From Sulfurimonas sp. (GTDB taxonomy: Bacteria; Campylobacterota; Campylobacteria; Campylobacterales; Sulfurimonadaceae): 32,968 nt of DNA. Positions 16,847 to 26,549 of the stretch are shown here, piece by piece (positions within the stretch are counted from its first letter, which is position 1; every line of letters starts with the position of its first letter). Position numbers and translations under genes: made by a program. Location: positions 12,665 to 45,632 of the forward strand of contig JALWSY010000144.1 in assembly GCA_027083035.1 (NCBI GenBank), in the 5' to 3' direction. The notes below the pieces were generated by a model. That model did no database searches, was not told the origin of the DNA, and was given only the letters and a program-made list of their open reading frames with translations.

Positions 16847-17590
16847 TTACTCTCTACCTAAATCTATATATTTTCGCATTAACGCTATCTGCTTTTTCTC
16901 ATAGGGAAGCTCCAAGCAGGGTGCATCTCCATTAAAATGTACTTCACCATGAGGGGTGATGATAGCGCTCTGAGCTGTACACTCTTCATTTTTTGCATCA
17001 CTTGCAACAACATAACACTGATTCATAATCGCGAGTGTCTGTGTAAAGGCTTTAAAATGCTCCTCACGAGGTTTTCCCCACCAAGAGGGTGTCACTATAA
17101 CATCTGCACCCTCTGCCTTTTTCCACAACTCTTTAAAACGAAGCTCAAAACAGATAAAGAGTGCCATCTTGATACCGGCAACTTCAAAGACCTGAAACTC
17201 TGCATCACTTCCCTCTTCCATGAACTTATGCTCACCTCCAAGACGAAAGAGTCGCGCCTTTGTTCGAGAGAAACAGACCTCACCTTTGTGGATAACCTTA
17301 GCGACATTAAAGACTTTACCATCAATGCGCTCAAGCATGGTAAGCACTAGAATTTTATCTCCGACTACCTCTTTGAGTCTCTTAGTAGCCACTTTTGCAA
17401 AAGAGAGCATCGCTTCGTAGTTGTCATAATCAAAACCTGTCAAACAGACCTCATGCGCTACAACAAGCGCACCCTCTTTGGCATTTTGCACAAGAGAGAT
17501 AAGCGTCTCTAAATTTTTTTGATAATCGGGAGTTGTTGTAAAAAGAGTAGCACAGAGTGTGCGACTCCTCTCTTTAGAAGTCATCATCAA
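16847..17590 (-). CDS. Carbon-nitrogen hydrolase (nitrilase superfamily)
   Basis: 247 aa; '[17 protein letters not shown]', '[20 protein letters not shown]', '[31 protein letters not shown]' (E-K-C triad). Confidence 0.88.
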
Positions 17591-18596
17591 AGGTTAAACT
17601 TCCCTTAGAGTAGTTTGTTACTGTTCCCTCAAAGAAGTTTGTCTTCTGGTCATTAAACTTTGCAAAATCATCTACCCACTTTATCGGATTTGTAACATTA
17701 TAGAGTTTCTCAAAACCAACTGATGTGAGCCTATCATCTGCAAGATACTTGATGTACTGCTCAACAATATCATCTGTAAGTCCAAGTATCTGCCCCTGTG
17801 TGATATATTTTCCCCACTCTGTCTCAAGCTTTACAGCCTCTTCAAACATCTCTATCACTTCTGCTTTTAACTGCTCATCAAAGAGATCAGGACGCTCCTT
17901 TCTAAGTGTATTTATCAAGTTTTGAAAAAGCACTAAGTGAGTTACCTCATCACGCTGAATAAAACGAATCATCTGTGCAGAGCCAAGCATCTTTCCAGAG
18001 CGTGCAAGAGTATAGATGTAAGCAAAACCGCTGTAAAAGTAGATACCCTCAAGTATCTGATTAGCAAAACAAGCCTTTACAAAGTTTCTATCTGTCGGGT
18101 TCTTTGCAAGTTCAAGATAGACTCTTGCAATGGCATCATTTTTACTCTTAAGCATCATATCACGACGCCACAAATCATAAATCTCTTCTGAGTTTGTTGA
18201 GATACTATCTACCATAACAGCGTATGATTGAGAGTGAAGTGCCTCCTCAAACGATTGTCTCACCAAGATAAGATTTATCTCCGGTGAAGTCACATAAGGG
18301 TTTACATTATCGATGATGTTATTTGTCTGCAAAGAGTCCATAAAGATAAGCTGAGAGAGTGCTTTGTCATAAGCTGTCTTCTCCATCTCTGTGAGATTTT
18401 TATAATCATTCACATCACGAGTCATATCGACCTCTTTTGGAAACCATGTGTTGTTAAGCATCATCTCCCAAAGGTTATATGCCCATTGGTATTTAATGTT
18501 GTTAAGCTCAAAAATTCCTGTTGGATTTCCACCAAATATCTTTCTGTCATTTACATTCTCTACAGATTCAGGGTTATATATCTTTTTTCTTTCCAT
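17574..18596 (-). CDS. nrdB: Ribonucleoside-diphosphate reductase beta subunit
   Basis: 340 aa; '[10 protein letters not shown]', '[17 protein letters not shown]' (metal ligands and radical Tyr context), '[12 protein letters not shown]'. Confidence 0.94.
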
Positions 18597-18753
18597 TTTG
18601 AGCTCCAGATTATTAAAATAAGTCTATGATTATATCGAGCTAGTGATTAAATCAAAATTATGTCACTATCTATCACTTTTTTATCAAATTTTCAGTATAG
18701 ATTTATCTTATATGCTATAGACTATTGGAAGACAATATGATGAGGAGATAGGA

Positions 18754-19527
18754 ATGGGATTTTTTAGTAGAAATAACATCGATAAAGATGCGTACGATAA
18801 ACTAAAAGAGGAAAATGAGAAGCTTTACGCTCAAAACAGAGCATTAGAGGCAGAGATTCAAGAGTTGCAAGAGAGATGTACAACGCAAAAAGAGACATCT
18901 AAAGAGGAACTCTTAGATAAGCTTATGATCTTGGAGTCACAAAACTTACAATCAAATATTAAAGATATTCAAGGCAATATTGCGGAATCTGTTACAAGCT
19001 CTAAAACGAGTCTTGAAAAAACAGAGCATTTAGTAGAGAGTCTCAACCTTATTAGCCAGAAAACAGCTCAAATATCTACAGTTCTTGAAAATCTCAATGA
19101 ACTCTCAAATAACTCTATAAACACAGTAACAGGACTCTCAGAGAGAACAAATGATATAACAACTATTTTAGCACTTATAAAAGATATCTCTGACCAAACA
19201 AACCTCCTTGCGCTTAATGCTGCCATAGAAGCTGCTCGTGCAGGTGAACATGGACGCGGTTTTGCTGTTGTTGCCGATGAAGTGCGTAAGCTTGCCGATA
19301 GAACAGACAAAGCAGTAAGTGAGATAAATATCTCTCTTCAATCCATGAAACAAGATGTTGATAGTATGTCTGAACAGTTTACAGATATTCAGCAAAATGT
19401 CTCCCAGTCAAATGGCTTAATAAGTGAACTGAACACCTGCATAGGAACAAACCATGAAGAACTTAAGGTCTCTTTTAAGGCAATGGAGTTCTCCAACGAT
19501 AGAGTCTTTATGTCTTTATGTCTTTAG
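18754..19527 (+). CDS. Soluble methyl-accepting chemotaxis protein, signalling domain (separated from its CZB domain by frame change)
   Basis: '[41 protein letters not shown]' MCP hairpin tip; no TM; ORF stops within an 8-bp tandem repeat. Confidence 0.92.
19504..19526 (+). repeat. 8-bp tandem repeat GTCTTTAT x 2.9 causing frameshift
   Basis: GTCTTTAT GTCTTTAT GTCTTTA; removal of one unit would read [14 protein letters not shown] in frame. Confidence 0.9.
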
Positions 19528-19856
19528 CAAAACTTGACCATATCCTCTGGAAGGTAAACACCTACTACTCAGCGATAACACAAACAGAACAGTTTCAGTT
19601 TGTAGATCATCATAACTGTCGTTTAGGTAAGTGGTACTATGAAGGAGAGGGCAAAGAGAACTTCTCAAATACTACGCACTATAAGGCATTAGAGACACCT
19701 CACGCAATAGTACATAACGGTACCCATAAGGTCTTTGAGCTGATGATGCAAGAGCCTATTAATACAAATGCTATGGTAGCTGCTTTTGAAGAGATGGAGA
19801 GTGGAAGTATCCAAGTTTTTGAAACTTTAGATAAAATACTTCATGACAAAGATTAA
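19518..19856 (+). CDS. CZB (chemoreceptor zinc-binding) domain, C-terminal part of the preceding chemoreceptor or a separate protein
   Basis: 112 aa; '[14 protein letters not shown]', '[16 protein letters not shown]', '[12 protein letters not shown]' (3His/1Cys pattern). Confidence 0.88.
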
Positions 19857-20823
19857 TCCACAACCCTTTCACCCTGCATTTGGCTTGCACAACAGCCATC
19901 TGCAAACCATCTACTCCTCACTTTTTAGAAAATCAAAACACCTTACCTATGAAATCGAGAAATTTTCTCTTAGTGATGGAGATTTTGTAGAGTGTTTTTG
20001 GCACAAAAGTCACAAACAAACAACGAACGCTCCTCTATGTGTTATCTTTCATGGACTCGCCGGCTCCTATGAGTCTCCCTACATTGAGGGAGTTGTCCAA
20101 GAGCTTGATAAAAATGGCATAGATGCCGTTGTGATGCACTTTCGTGGCTGTGGTTTAGAGGAAAATCTTCTTCCTCGCTCTTATCATAGCGGGGAGACAA
20201 ATGATGCAAAAGAGTTCCTTACACATCTTAAAAAAAGCAAACCTTCACAGGATATCTACGCAGTAGGCTACTCACTCGGTGGCAATATGCTCCTCAAACT
20301 CTTAGGTGAGATGCAAACTAACACGCTCATTACAAAAGCGGTTGCTGTCTCAGCACCTATGCAGCTCAAAGTCTCTGCCAAAAGTATAAACAGAGGCTTC
20401 TCAAGATACTACCAATACAGACTGATGCGAAGCCTTAACGACTCACTCATAAAAAAGTTTGCTAAACACGATATGAGCAAACTTATCACAATAAAAAAAG
20501 AGGAAGTAAAAAACCTCAAAACATTTTGGGAGTTTGATGATGCATATACTGCCCCGATTCACGGCTTTGATTCGGCAGAAGATTATTATGAGAAATGCAG
20601 TTCAAAACAGTACCTAAAGTATATCCAAACACCTACACTCATCATCCACTCCAAAGATGACCCCTTTATGAGCAAAGAGGTAATTCCAAGTAAGGAGGAA
20701 CTCTCCTCTACAACTACCCTCGAACTTTACGACAACGGTGGTCATGTCGGTTTTATCGCAGGCAGTTTTCTCAAGCCTATTTACTGGCTTGAGAAAAGAG
20801 TAGTTTCCTATCTTTTAAAATAA
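19843..20823 (+). CDS. YheT-family alpha/beta hydrolase
   Basis: 326 aa; 'HLQTIYSSLFRK', 'FHGLAGSYESPYIEG', 'YAVGYSLGGNMLLKLLGE'. Confidence 0.88.
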   Translation: MTKINPQPFHPAFGLHNSHLQTIYSSLFRKSKHLTYEIEKFSLSDGDFVECFWHKSHKQTTNAPLCVIFHGLAGSYESPYIEGVVQELDKNGIDAVVMHFRGCGLEENLLPRSYHSGETNDAKEFLTHLKKSKPSQDIYAVGYSLGGNMLLKLLGEMQTNTLITKAVAVSAPMQLKVSAKSINRGFSRYYQYRLMRSLNDSLIKKFAKHDMSKLITIKKEEVKNLKTFWEFDDAYTAPIHGFDSAEDYYEKCSSKQYLKYIQTPTLIIHSKDDPFMSKEVIPSKEELSSTTTLELYDNGGHVGFIAGSFLKPIYWLEKRVVSYLLK

Positions 20824-22148: not shown

Positions 22149-25100
22149 CTACTCCGCCACTCTGTAAATAATATATGGGTATGCTTTTAAAGATCTACGA
22201 GGTGCTGAAGCACTCTGTGTATCACTCACCTCAAATGTATAATTTTTTGTCACTCCCGGAGTTAAATCAGTTCCACTTAAACTTGCGCCACTTACATTAG
22301 TAACACCAGAGAACTCTATACTATATGTTCCAACACCATCTGGTGCCTCGATACCTTGCAGCATTGCCGTATTTGTACCAATATTTACTTTTGGGTGATA
22401 TGTATCACAATAGTCGGCATCAGTTGCATACATTGAACCAACAAAACTATTATTTACATAGAGCTGGAACGCATCATCTTTGGCACCACCATCATCACAA
22501 ACTGTAACCGTAATACTACTGAGTTTTACGGTATATGTGACACTATTTGACCACTCTGTCCACTTACCATCTACTTTTGTTCTTACTTTTACATCCTGCT
22601 CACCCTCTTTGAGAGATGAAGGAATTATAATTTTAATACTATCCGCAGATGTCCCCGCAATCAATGCAGTCTTGCCACCAACAGTCACTTCGTTTTCACT
22701 ATTTTTTAATGAAAATCCAGAACCTGAAAGAACTGCTTCTACACCAGTAGCTCCACTATCTGGAGTAATTGAGGAGAGTGTAACTTTATCTACTACTTCA
22801 ATAGCAGCCTTTTTTGTTACTATACTGTTTTTATTAAATGTCGGATGGTGTATCGATACATCAATAGGTCCTTGAATATATTTATAAAGAAAATCTCCCG
22901 GAACCTCAACTGTCATAGCCGTACCATCAGGTTTAATATAAGATGGAGTCAGAGTAGTTGTAAGTCCATCACCATCAGTAAACGTAATCTCCGGTTTCAC
23001 TCCTGAGAAGTTATAAAAGTGTTCTTTTATTTCACTAAATCCTGTACCATGAATAGTAAATTTCCTTGAAGAACCATCTGGAATAATCTTATTTGGACTT
23101 ACAGAAGTAATACTAACTGGAAAAACAACAGAGAAGTCAATAATAGCATCTTTTGTACTGAGATCATATACTGCCCCTGCTACATTAAGTCCATTATTTA
23201 AATGCCCAGCTACCTCGTAAGCAGCTGAAATCTGTCCTATTACAGGAACAGCTTTCATACCAATTTTTTTTGCGATTTTCTTCACAAGTTTTTTTGCAAA
23301 CTCTTTTGCAACATTTTTCACTTTAGTACCAAGTGCTGTTTTAGCGATAGCAGTTGTAATTGGTCCGGGTGGTTGAGAAAACAAATCTTGACTTAGCGCA
23401 CTAAAGAGTGACTTTGCAGCTTTTGTATATCCATCCTCTTGACTTAAGTCATTTACTATTATATCTAGTGTGGGTGTTGCATAAGTGTAGAGTATATTGA
23501 TAAAGGTATGAGCATCCATATACTCACCTAATATCTCAGAGAGTACAGGCCAAGTAACTCTCTCTACAAGTGTTCTAATCGCTAAATATTTATGAATATT
23601 TTTTGTCTTCGCATCAGAGTTATCTGATGAAATTTTTGGATCATATTCACTATCTAGACCCGGTGTTACAATCTCAACATTACAGTTCTGTCCACCCGGT
23701 AAATTTAACTCTGAAGTATATGCCCAGAAAAGTAATCCATACCCTTGTGGATTTACTAAATTTGAGGAGAAATAACTTGTTGGGTGATCTTGCAATATTT
23801 TTCCCTTCATATCTGTAATTCTTGCAGAGAGGTAGAGCTGTGTGTCGTTGTAAATATTTATGTTCCCCGTGTCACCTCTCTCATAAACTTCTATGCCATC
23901 TGCACTTGATGGTGTAACCGTTGCATCTGCTCCATATATTCCTCTTCTTGGCGCTGAAGATTTATTGGAGGATTTTTTTGTATATGTCCCTTTTGTAATC
24001 TCTGCATCAAGATATGTAGCAGCAGCTAAAAGTGCCGCATTTGATTTCTCTACAAAAGTTTTACTCTGATTAATCAAAGCTTTTTTATTAACAGAAAGTT
24101 CACTCTGTACAGTCTGTGCAAAAGTTTGCACTTCAGGAAGTGCTTCAATTGCTGAAATAGCTGAAGAGAGTTGACTCTCTTCAATCATAGCATCAAGTCC
24201 CAATCCACTATATACCAACGCAAGTGCTGTAGATTTTGCATCAACATTTACACTTGTATCTTCTGGTAGTACAACAGCATACAAGTAAGGAATATAGTCC
24301 GGATCCTCTACGGAAGTTGTTGTATCTTCAATAGTCGCTGCAGCTAGCATTGGAGTATCTACCTTTACAGGGAGTGTTAAGTATCCACTATAGTCTGGAG
24401 CATAAGAGTCATCAGCCACACTAAAATCTATGCTACTCATTGCAACACTTGTATTTGGAGATTGTACCGTTACAGAGACATCTCTTTTTATAGCCACATA
24501 GAGCTGATTTGAAATACCATCACTATCTTCAACTGCTAACATACCACTTTGCCAAGTATCTCCATACCCTTTTGTGTAAGTAAATGAACTTGCATAACCA
24601 TAACTGTTGTCATAACTATAACTATTTCCATTAAGAATAATAGTAAGATCACTATTTAGATTTTGCCCCTCTATCTCTAGTCTATCATAATAGGCATTAT
24701 ATGATGCACTTGTTATAAGAGGTGTCTTCTCATCCACAAAAAGCAAATCCTCACCTATTGTTCTCATAGAGTCATCTAGAGTTACAAAAAACTCTACCTC
24801 TCCTTTATCAATATTATCAGGACAGATAAAATTAACTACACCATCTTGAGTGATATTCGCATCTTGATTTATACTATCTTGAAGACCTTTAAAAGTAAGC
24901 ATTACCGATGATGTACCTGCTGGTACATTCTCTAAAATCACTTCCATACTATCACCTTTAGAACACACTTTTTCGATTCCCAAAGTTTTGTTTTCTAAAG
25001 ATTTGATAAGTAAACTCTCTGCATATGGAAGATTCTCTCCCGGCATTGCTATACTTCTGTTCATTGCATCTTTCTTTTCTGAAATATCCAAAATACCATC

Positions 25101-26549
25101 ATTATCATTATCAAGGTCTAAATAATCAGGAACTGTGTCACCATCCGTATCTAAAGGATTTATATAATTTTCTCCAATCTCATCACTATCTAAGACACCA
25201 TTTCCATCACTATCTAAATCCAAAAAGTTTGGTTTTCCATCCTCATCTATATCGTTTAATATATTAAGCTCTTCCGCACTCATATCAGGTTTTTCACTCT
25301 GTGTATAAAACTCTATGCTATCTGAAAGACCATCGTTATCACTATCATAGTCCCACCAGTTAGGAATCTTATCTCCGTCAACATCTGCAAGACCACTCTC
25401 ATATGCATATGTATATTCAATAAAATCAATAATACCATCCCCATCACTATCCGGGGTGTTCTCATTTGATTCTATCGCCTGCTCTAAAGTGTCAGAGAGA
25501 CCATCCATATCTGAATCAGAAAAAATCTTGATTGTGTAGTTCCATGATGCATCACTTTTTCCTTGTGCATCAGTTACGATGAGATAGTATGTTGCATCTG
25601 ATGGCACATAGACAGAAGTAAGCGACTTCTTAAGCGCAGAGATATCCGTTGTAATACTTGAAACTGCTGCACCTTGTGCATCTACCATAGATACAATCAA
25701 ATTCATTGATGGATCTAAAGCATCAATAACAATGGAGTAGTTTCCTGTTACAAGTGCAACAGAGTAAAAATCAGAATCTGTTTTAGTGCCTGAATAACCA
25801 TCCTCTGAGTAGATACGCCCCTCAATTTGTAAAGGTACACTCAAGTTTGTTGTTTCTGCAATAGTAATACCATCATTTTTATTATAAGTTGTGTTATTCT
25901 CTTTAGATTCCTTATAGACACTAAGTGCTGTTTTAGAGCTATCTAAAGGGAAATCATCATTAACATCATCTACACCATCTCCATCTGTATCAGCAGAGAA
26001 GTAGTTCCCCTTACCATCTCCATCAAAATCAATATGAGAGACGATATTATCAGGGAAAAGATCATTTATATTTAAAAATCCATCTCCATCTCTATCTGCA
26101 TCATCACTATCACTCAGTCCATCAGCATCTGCATCATCTAAGAGAGTAATAGTTACTTTGTCAGTAGCCTCTTTACCATCTTTGTTTACTACGCGTAGCA
26201 TTACCTCATATTTTCCCGAAGTATCGCCATATACACCTGTACTCTTTGTTGTAGAAGAGATAAAATTTAACTGCGCTGCAGTAGTTGGTTTGGAGACAAC
26301 ACTCCATGTAAATGTACTACCATAACTCGCACTTCCATCAAGGAAAAGTAACTCCTGCGTCTGCACATTTGACATATCTTTTGTAGTTATACCATTGCGA
26401 TCTCCCCCAGCATTTGCAATGGGATCGTTATCAACTGCCACCTTTTTTTCTGTCGGCTCTTCCTTTTGCGAAGAACCACCACTATCCTTGCTACAGCCCA
26501 GCAATGTAACTAAACCTATAAGCAATAATAACTTCATTATTATCTTCAT
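22149..26549 (-). CDS. Very large multidomain lipoprotein (PKD-like, TSP3/Ca-binding repeats, PPC-like, IPT/TIG domains)
   Basis: 1466 aa; lipobox VTLLGCSKD; many DxDxDG runs ('DADADGLSDSDDADRDGDGFLNINDLFPDN'); IPT/TIG-like 'ITSVSPNKIIPDGSSRKFTIHGTGF' and 'LSSITPDSGATGVEAVLSGSGF'. Confidence 0.88.
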   Translation of the reverse strand: MKIIMKLLLLIGLVTLLGCSKDSGGSSQKEEPTEKKVAVDNDPIANAGGDRNGITTKDMSNVQTQELLFLDGSASYGSTFTWSVVSKPTTAAQLNFISSTTKSTGVYGDTSGKYEVMLRVVNKDGKEATDKVTITLLDDADADGLSDSDDADRDGDGFLNINDLFPDNIVSHIDFDGDGKGNYFSADTDGDGVDDVNDDFPLDSSKTALSVYKESKENNTTYNKNDGITIAETTNLSVPLQIEGRIYSEDGYSGTKTDSDFYSVALVTGNYSIVIDALDPSMNLIVSMVDAQGAAVSSITTDISALKKSLTSVYVPSDATYYLIVTDAQGKSDASWNYTIKIFSDSDMDGLSDTLEQAIESNENTPDSDGDGIIDFIEYTYAYESGLADVDGDKIPNWWDYDSDNDGLSDSIEFYTQSEKPDMSAEELNILNDIDEDGKPNFLDLDSDGNGVLDSDEIGENYINPLDTDGDTVPDYLDLDNDNDGILDISEKKDAMNRSIAMPGENLPYAESLLIKSLENKTLGIEKVCSKGDSMEVILENVPAGTSSVMLTFKGLQDSINQDANITQDGVVNFICPDNIDKGEVEFFVTLDDSMRTIGEDLLFVDEKTPLITSASYNAYYDRLEIEGQNLNSDLTIILNGNSYSYDNSYGYASSFTYTKGYGDTWQSGMLAVEDSDGISNQLYVAIKRDVSVTVQSPNTSVAMSSIDFSVADDSYAPDYSGYLTLPVKVDTPMLAAATIEDTTTSVEDPDYIPYLYAVVLPEDTSVNVDAKSTALALVYSGLGLDAMIEESQLSSAISAIEALPEVQTFAQTVQSELSVNKKALINQSKTFVEKSNAALLAAATYLDAEITKGTYTKKSSNKSSAPRRGIYGADATVTPSSADGIEVYERGDTGNINIYNDTQLYLSARITDMKGKILQDHPTSYFSSNLVNPQGYGLLFWAYTSELNLPGGQNCNVEIVTPGLDSEYDPKISSDNSDAKTKNIHKYLAIRTLVERVTWPVLSEILGEYMDAHTFINILYTYATPTLDIIVNDLSQEDGYTKAAKSLFSALSQDLFSQPPGPITTAIAKTALGTKVKNVAKEFAKKLVKKIAKKIGMKAVPVIGQISAAYEVAGHLNNGLNVAGAVYDLSTKDAIIDFSVVFPVSITSVSPNKIIPDGSSRKFTIHGTGFSEIKEHFYNFSGVKPEITFTDGDGLTTTLTPSYIKPDGTAMTVEVPGDFLYKYIQGPIDVSIHHPTFNKNSIVTKKAAIEVVDKVTLSSITPDSGATGVEAVLSGSGFSLKNSENEVTVGGKTALIAGTSADSIKIIIPSSLKEGEQDVKVRTKVDGKWTEWSNSVTYTVKLSSITVTVCDDGGAKDDAFQLYVNNSFVGSMYATDADYCDTYHPKVNIGTNTAMLQGIEAPDGVGTYSIEFSGVTNVSGASLSGTDLTPGVTKNYTFEVSDTQSASAPRRSLKAYPYIIYRVAE

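Follow-up and report, generated by a model that had tools for sequence, protein, structure and literature searches.

Several soluble chemoreceptors are built from an MCP signalling hairpin followed by a zinc-binding CZB domain (PF00015 and PF13682, respectively), the closest described case here being TlpD of H. pylori. Another chemoreceptor of the Campylobacterota, Tlp7 of C. jejuni (Cj0951c/Cj0952c), occurs either as a single gene or divided over two adjacent ORFs, and it works as one protein or two (PMC3461409). Tlp7 is a membrane receptor in which a stop codon lies between the periplasmic and the cytoplasmic domains, and both its strain variation and its function have been shown. Reversible changes of function by the gain or loss of one unit of a short intragenic tandem repeat have been described for icaC of S. 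aureus (unit ttta; PMC4117637) and for mutL of Salmonella (6-bp unit GCTGGC; PMC2955026). In the latter two genes, reversibility and variation were shown experimentally, whereas the locus discussed here is known from one sequence with one copy number.

This locus lies in the window, i.e., the whole stretch of 32,968 nucleotides that was analysed, from a 2.29-Mb draft genome (G000; 192 contigs, 94.6% complete) whose named relatives are mostly Sulfurimonas. ORF1 (18754..19527, plus strand; 257 aa) contains an N-terminal coil and the MCP signalling domain (PF00015 match at residues 119-225, E 1.8e-34). It is truncated just before the CZB domain, ending in ...DRVFMSLCL with a stop codon at 19525-19527. 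The severed CZB domain is found in ORF2 (19518..19856, plus strand; 112 aa; PF13682, E 3.9e-14), which contains the full set of four candidate zinc ligands, H8, C34, H62 and H66, paired by motif with H315, C340, H368 and H372 of TlpD (PMC12871147). Hydropathy analysis revealed no membrane segment in either ORF, with maximal 19-residue values of 0.84 for ORF1 and 0.72 for ORF2 against 2.46 for a membrane GGDEF protein used as control. Unlike TlpD, in the structure of which an N-terminal PAS domain is present (PMC12871147), the receptor has no PAS domain according to Pfam. The gene is preceded by a ribosome-binding region with an AGGAG core (18734..18753, plus strand; duplex energy -8.6 kcal/mol). 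It is flanked upstream by a divergent gene for the ribonucleotide reductase small chain (17574..18596, minus strand; PF00268), which lies beside the receptor in many relatives, and downstream by an alpha/beta hydrolase gene (19843..20823, plus strand; PF00561), which overlaps ORF2 and lies beside the receptor in several relatives. This gene order as a whole is common to several relatives, which supports the orthology of the locus. Elsewhere in the window, a CRISPR-like array is present at 195-1233, with ~15 repeats of ATCCTCCTCACACACCGTGAGGAAGTAATTTCGAGAC at a spacing of 70-75 nt and a degenerate final repeat, and the minus strand at 22149-26549 contains a 1466-aa lipoprotein-like ORF with many Asp-rich (calcium-binding-like) repeats. 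No Rfam families were found within the window.

The two ORFs meet at an 8-bp tandem repeat, GTCTTTAT x 2.9 (19504..19526, plus strand). According to TRF, this array, GTCTTTAT-GTCTTTAT-GTCTTTA, is perfect, with a length of 23 bp, a period of 8, 2.9 copies and a score of 46, and it stands one unit above the in-frame two-copy state. The overlap between ORF1 and ORF2 measures 10 bp and includes most of the last GTCTTTAT unit. A table of the reading frame by unit number showed an open frame of 364 aa with two units and an open frame with 8 additional residues with five, whilst 1, 3, 4 or 6 units result in an early stop; hence, the frame depends on the unit number modulo 3. An earlier note on this DNA had already described the end of ORF1, the 10-bp overlap and the position of the repeat exactly at the MCP/CZB junction, all of which were found as described. 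Its predictions that deletion of one unit joins both domains in one frame and that changes of -8 or +16 toggle the frame are borne out by the same table. Programmed -1 frameshifting as a route to the CZB frame was ruled out, as no canonical slippery heptamer (X XXY YYZ) is present anywhere in ORF1.

The comparison with relatives comprised 110 distinct loci related to the CZB ORF, and a locus was called open when its frame continued upstream of the junction for 150 codons or more. In 106 of them, the junction is read through in one frame. The remaining four include two that are open to the contig end, one in genome G009 with a different lesion (see below), and the window itself. The split is common to no relative, and an old, conserved gene split was ruled out on this ground. 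The locus has the MCP domain and the 3His/1Cys CZB domain of a soluble TlpD-like receptor and lacks a membrane segment as expected, and its orthologues read as one protein, but in the window the frame breaks between the hairpin and the CZB domain, so that there is no single polypeptide. On these comparisons, it appears to be an orthologue of the soluble TlpD-like MCP-CZB receptors (N-terminal coil, MCP hairpin, C-terminal CZB), and the Pfam domains and the single-frame state of the relatives agree with the earlier note, which had expected a soluble CZB chemoreceptor in a single frame. Relative to its relatives, the window has gained one 8-bp unit, and this comparison and the frame table both point to the extra unit as the cause of the split, as had been proposed. 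In contrast to Tlp7, the receptor is soluble and is split by an 8-bp repeat within the signalling helix.

The origin of the repeat can be sought in the protein sequence. The junction peptide is the same or closely variant in the great majority of the related loci, and Val-Phe-Met-Ser-Leu can be encoded as GTC TTT ATG TCT TTA. Since these codons can give GTCTTTATGTCTTTA, the repeat is a by-product of conserved protein sequence. The exact 15-bp two-copy seed GTCTTTATGTCTTTA is present in two orthologues (L033 and L053) and near-copies of it in two others (L032 and L135); other relatives differ from it by mostly synonymous changes. The seed is sporadic, with a period-8 run of at least 7 in only four orthologues. 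A search of 135 genomes of the genus that allowed up to 2 mismatches found the three-unit array in one of them and in none of the other 134. Among 200 Markov-simulated versions of the window, none had a period-8 run of at least 15. In a 252-kb sample of the window genome, from which the repeat background was taken, this array is the only such run, and it is also the sole perfect period-8 array reaching 2.5 copies. Period-8 runs of at least 7, i.e., 15-bp two-copy seeds, occur 23 times in this sample (~91 per Mb). The three-copy array exceeds chance and its two-copy precursor is common; with seeds at this density, one expansion is unremarkable, and one slippage event on a 15-bp seed is enough to make the array. 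The MutL C-terminal domain was not found in four genomes of the genus (G000, G018, G103 and G030), whilst the MutS N-terminal domain was present; the absence of MutL might loosen repeat stability. Loops of 8 bp are generally poor substrates for mismatch repair.

The consequences for the protein were considered with the nearest orthologue that is intact, in the AlphaFold2 model of which (mean pLDDT 85) residues 168-273 form a single helix with the junction VFMSL (251-255) inside. In this model, the break is located in an uninterrupted helix that connects the zinc site with the kinase-control hairpin. The corresponding helix in the TlpD structure ascends from the hairpin tip and bears the first zinc-ligand histidine (PMC12871147). 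A search of the PDB with the orthologue model gave weak coiled-coil matches only, and phmmer with ORF2 matched no solved CZB structure. Since the cut removes the whole CZB domain from ORF1, loss of function is most likely, and what is left of the receptor is expected to be unable to sense zinc or redox state. Truncation of TlpD at residue 322 left hardly any protein to detect, and deletion of its last 45 residues gave a diffuse protein that did not support chemotaxis (PMC13001251); by analogy with these truncations, the truncated receptor is probably unstable or non-functional. The start of ORF2 has a weak Shine-Dalgarno sequence (-2.4 kcal/mol vs. -8.6 kcal/mol for the receptor's own start), and ORF2 probably yields little or no protein.

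The genome encodes many CheW and MCP domains as well as FliF, and chemotaxis as a whole appears intact. Three other CZB receptors have open frames of 390-495 aa and could cover the role of the split one. Different lesions were found in two other genomes. At the syntenic locus of G009 (L010 1393-1821, G009:C2), an in-frame deletion joins the N-terminal coil directly to the CZB domain. This CZB ORF without an MCP core was considered as a sign of free-standing CZB function, which was ruled out, as it is a deletion remnant; it also lost the first zinc-ligand histidine. Its genome has little chemotaxis machinery left, i.e., few chemotaxis domains, with an internal stop in one CheW-type domain. In G035 (L163 2398-3883, G035:C65), a CZB gene is cut short beside an IS3-like transposase pair; because it adjoins this element, the fragment was rejected as a second case of frameshift. 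Thus, there seems to be more than one way in which the genus loses its CZB receptors, and this variety speaks for ordinary gene loss and against a dedicated switch.

Synonymous change (dS) relative to the nearest relatives is saturated and, therefore, gives no direct date for the split. When the 27 orthologues are ordered by mean dN (for the window, its distance to the 26 others), the window comes 13th with its MCP half and 12th with its CZB half, i.e., neither half shows faster protein evolution, and no further disabling lesions were found in either half. Since neither half shows relaxed or faster evolution, the mutation is probably recent. The mid-rank dN and the absence of further lesions do not fit long decay; they would fit an event of recent date as well as selection acting on the two halves, for which the dN statistics have the same outcome.

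The explanation that we consider likely is a recent slippage duplication, which probably inactivated one of the four CZB receptors and left a loss-of-function allele that can revert, not a dedicated switch. We infer that the additional 8-bp unit arose by replication slippage on GTCTTTATGTCTTTA, a 15-bp sequence that had two copies by chance. Its insertion shifts the frame, and translation stops a few codons later, in the helix running from the hairpin to the zinc site. The resulting receptor would be deprived of zinc/redox sensing, with the CZB ORF scarcely translated. Reversion by loss of one unit is possible in principle and would be expected to occur at the low rate of a three-copy repeat.

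The precedents of icaC, mutL and Tlp7 make phase variation or a working split receptor possible. The earlier note had proposed a phase-variable locus, i.e., one where slippage is frequent enough to toggle the fused receptor within the population and to generate heritable heterogeneity in zinc/redox taxis. Like in a contingency locus, a change in unit number switches the frame, and the array is placed at the very point where a change of one unit fuses or separates the two domains; the low-copy repeats of icaC (PMC4117637) and mutL (PMC2955026) can drive reversible changes, and the undetected MutL C-terminal domain in four genomes of the genus would also suit this proposal. However, the array has fewer than three copies and is found in none of the 134 other genomes searched, and neither the repeat tract nor its two-copy seed is conserved among the orthologues. 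Even with the 4-6 units of its variant strains, icaC yielded <1 variant per 45,000 divisions (PMC4117637). The unrelated lesions that broke other CZB receptors in the genus also argue against the proposal, which we regard as unlikely. Its most specific form, a population switch in which cells with two units make the fused zinc/redox receptor and those with three a sensorless MCP protein plus a free CZB domain, is less probable still.

We give an equally low chance to a functional split receptor, in which ORF1 and ORF2 would be made separately by termination-reinitiation over the 10-bp overlap and then associate in a Tlp7-like manner. The start of ORF2 is a Met conserved in most orthologues, ORF2 retains its four candidate zinc ligands, and its dN is not accelerated. 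The overlapping hydrolase gene has an equally weak Shine-Dalgarno sequence, which leaves room for coupled translation and suggests that coupling may be usual here. On the other hand, Tlp7 is cut between its periplasmic and cytoplasmic domains, whereas the cut in the window falls, according to the orthologue model, inside the helix between zinc site and hairpin (PMC12871147); truncation of TlpD close to the matching position results in poor production of the protein (PMC13001251), the Shine-Dalgarno sequence of ORF2 is weak, and the split state was seen in no relative examined. An artefact of assembly or sequencing, or the raising of a minority variant to consensus in a population that truly has two units, would be consistent with a draft of this contig number and completeness and with the read-through in nearly all relatives. 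Yet, the 23-bp array fits inside one short read, and ten other window proteins that were scanned match Pfam domains without a sign of frameshift. An insertion of 8 bp is not a typical error of current sequencing platforms, and we consider an artefact very doubtful.

A recent and probably inactivating slippage event, as preferred here, would offer a clear single-event example of a short, codon-dictated repeat dividing a receptor between two of its domains, in a genus in which further CZB receptors were broken in other ways. If the population switch were real, slippage would uncouple a sensor from its signalling domain, which goes beyond mere gene silencing. If the copy number varies in nature, the locus would be a chemoreceptor gene in which phase variation acts at the level of domains, and nature would thereby provide a test of whether a two-piece CZB receptor is functional.
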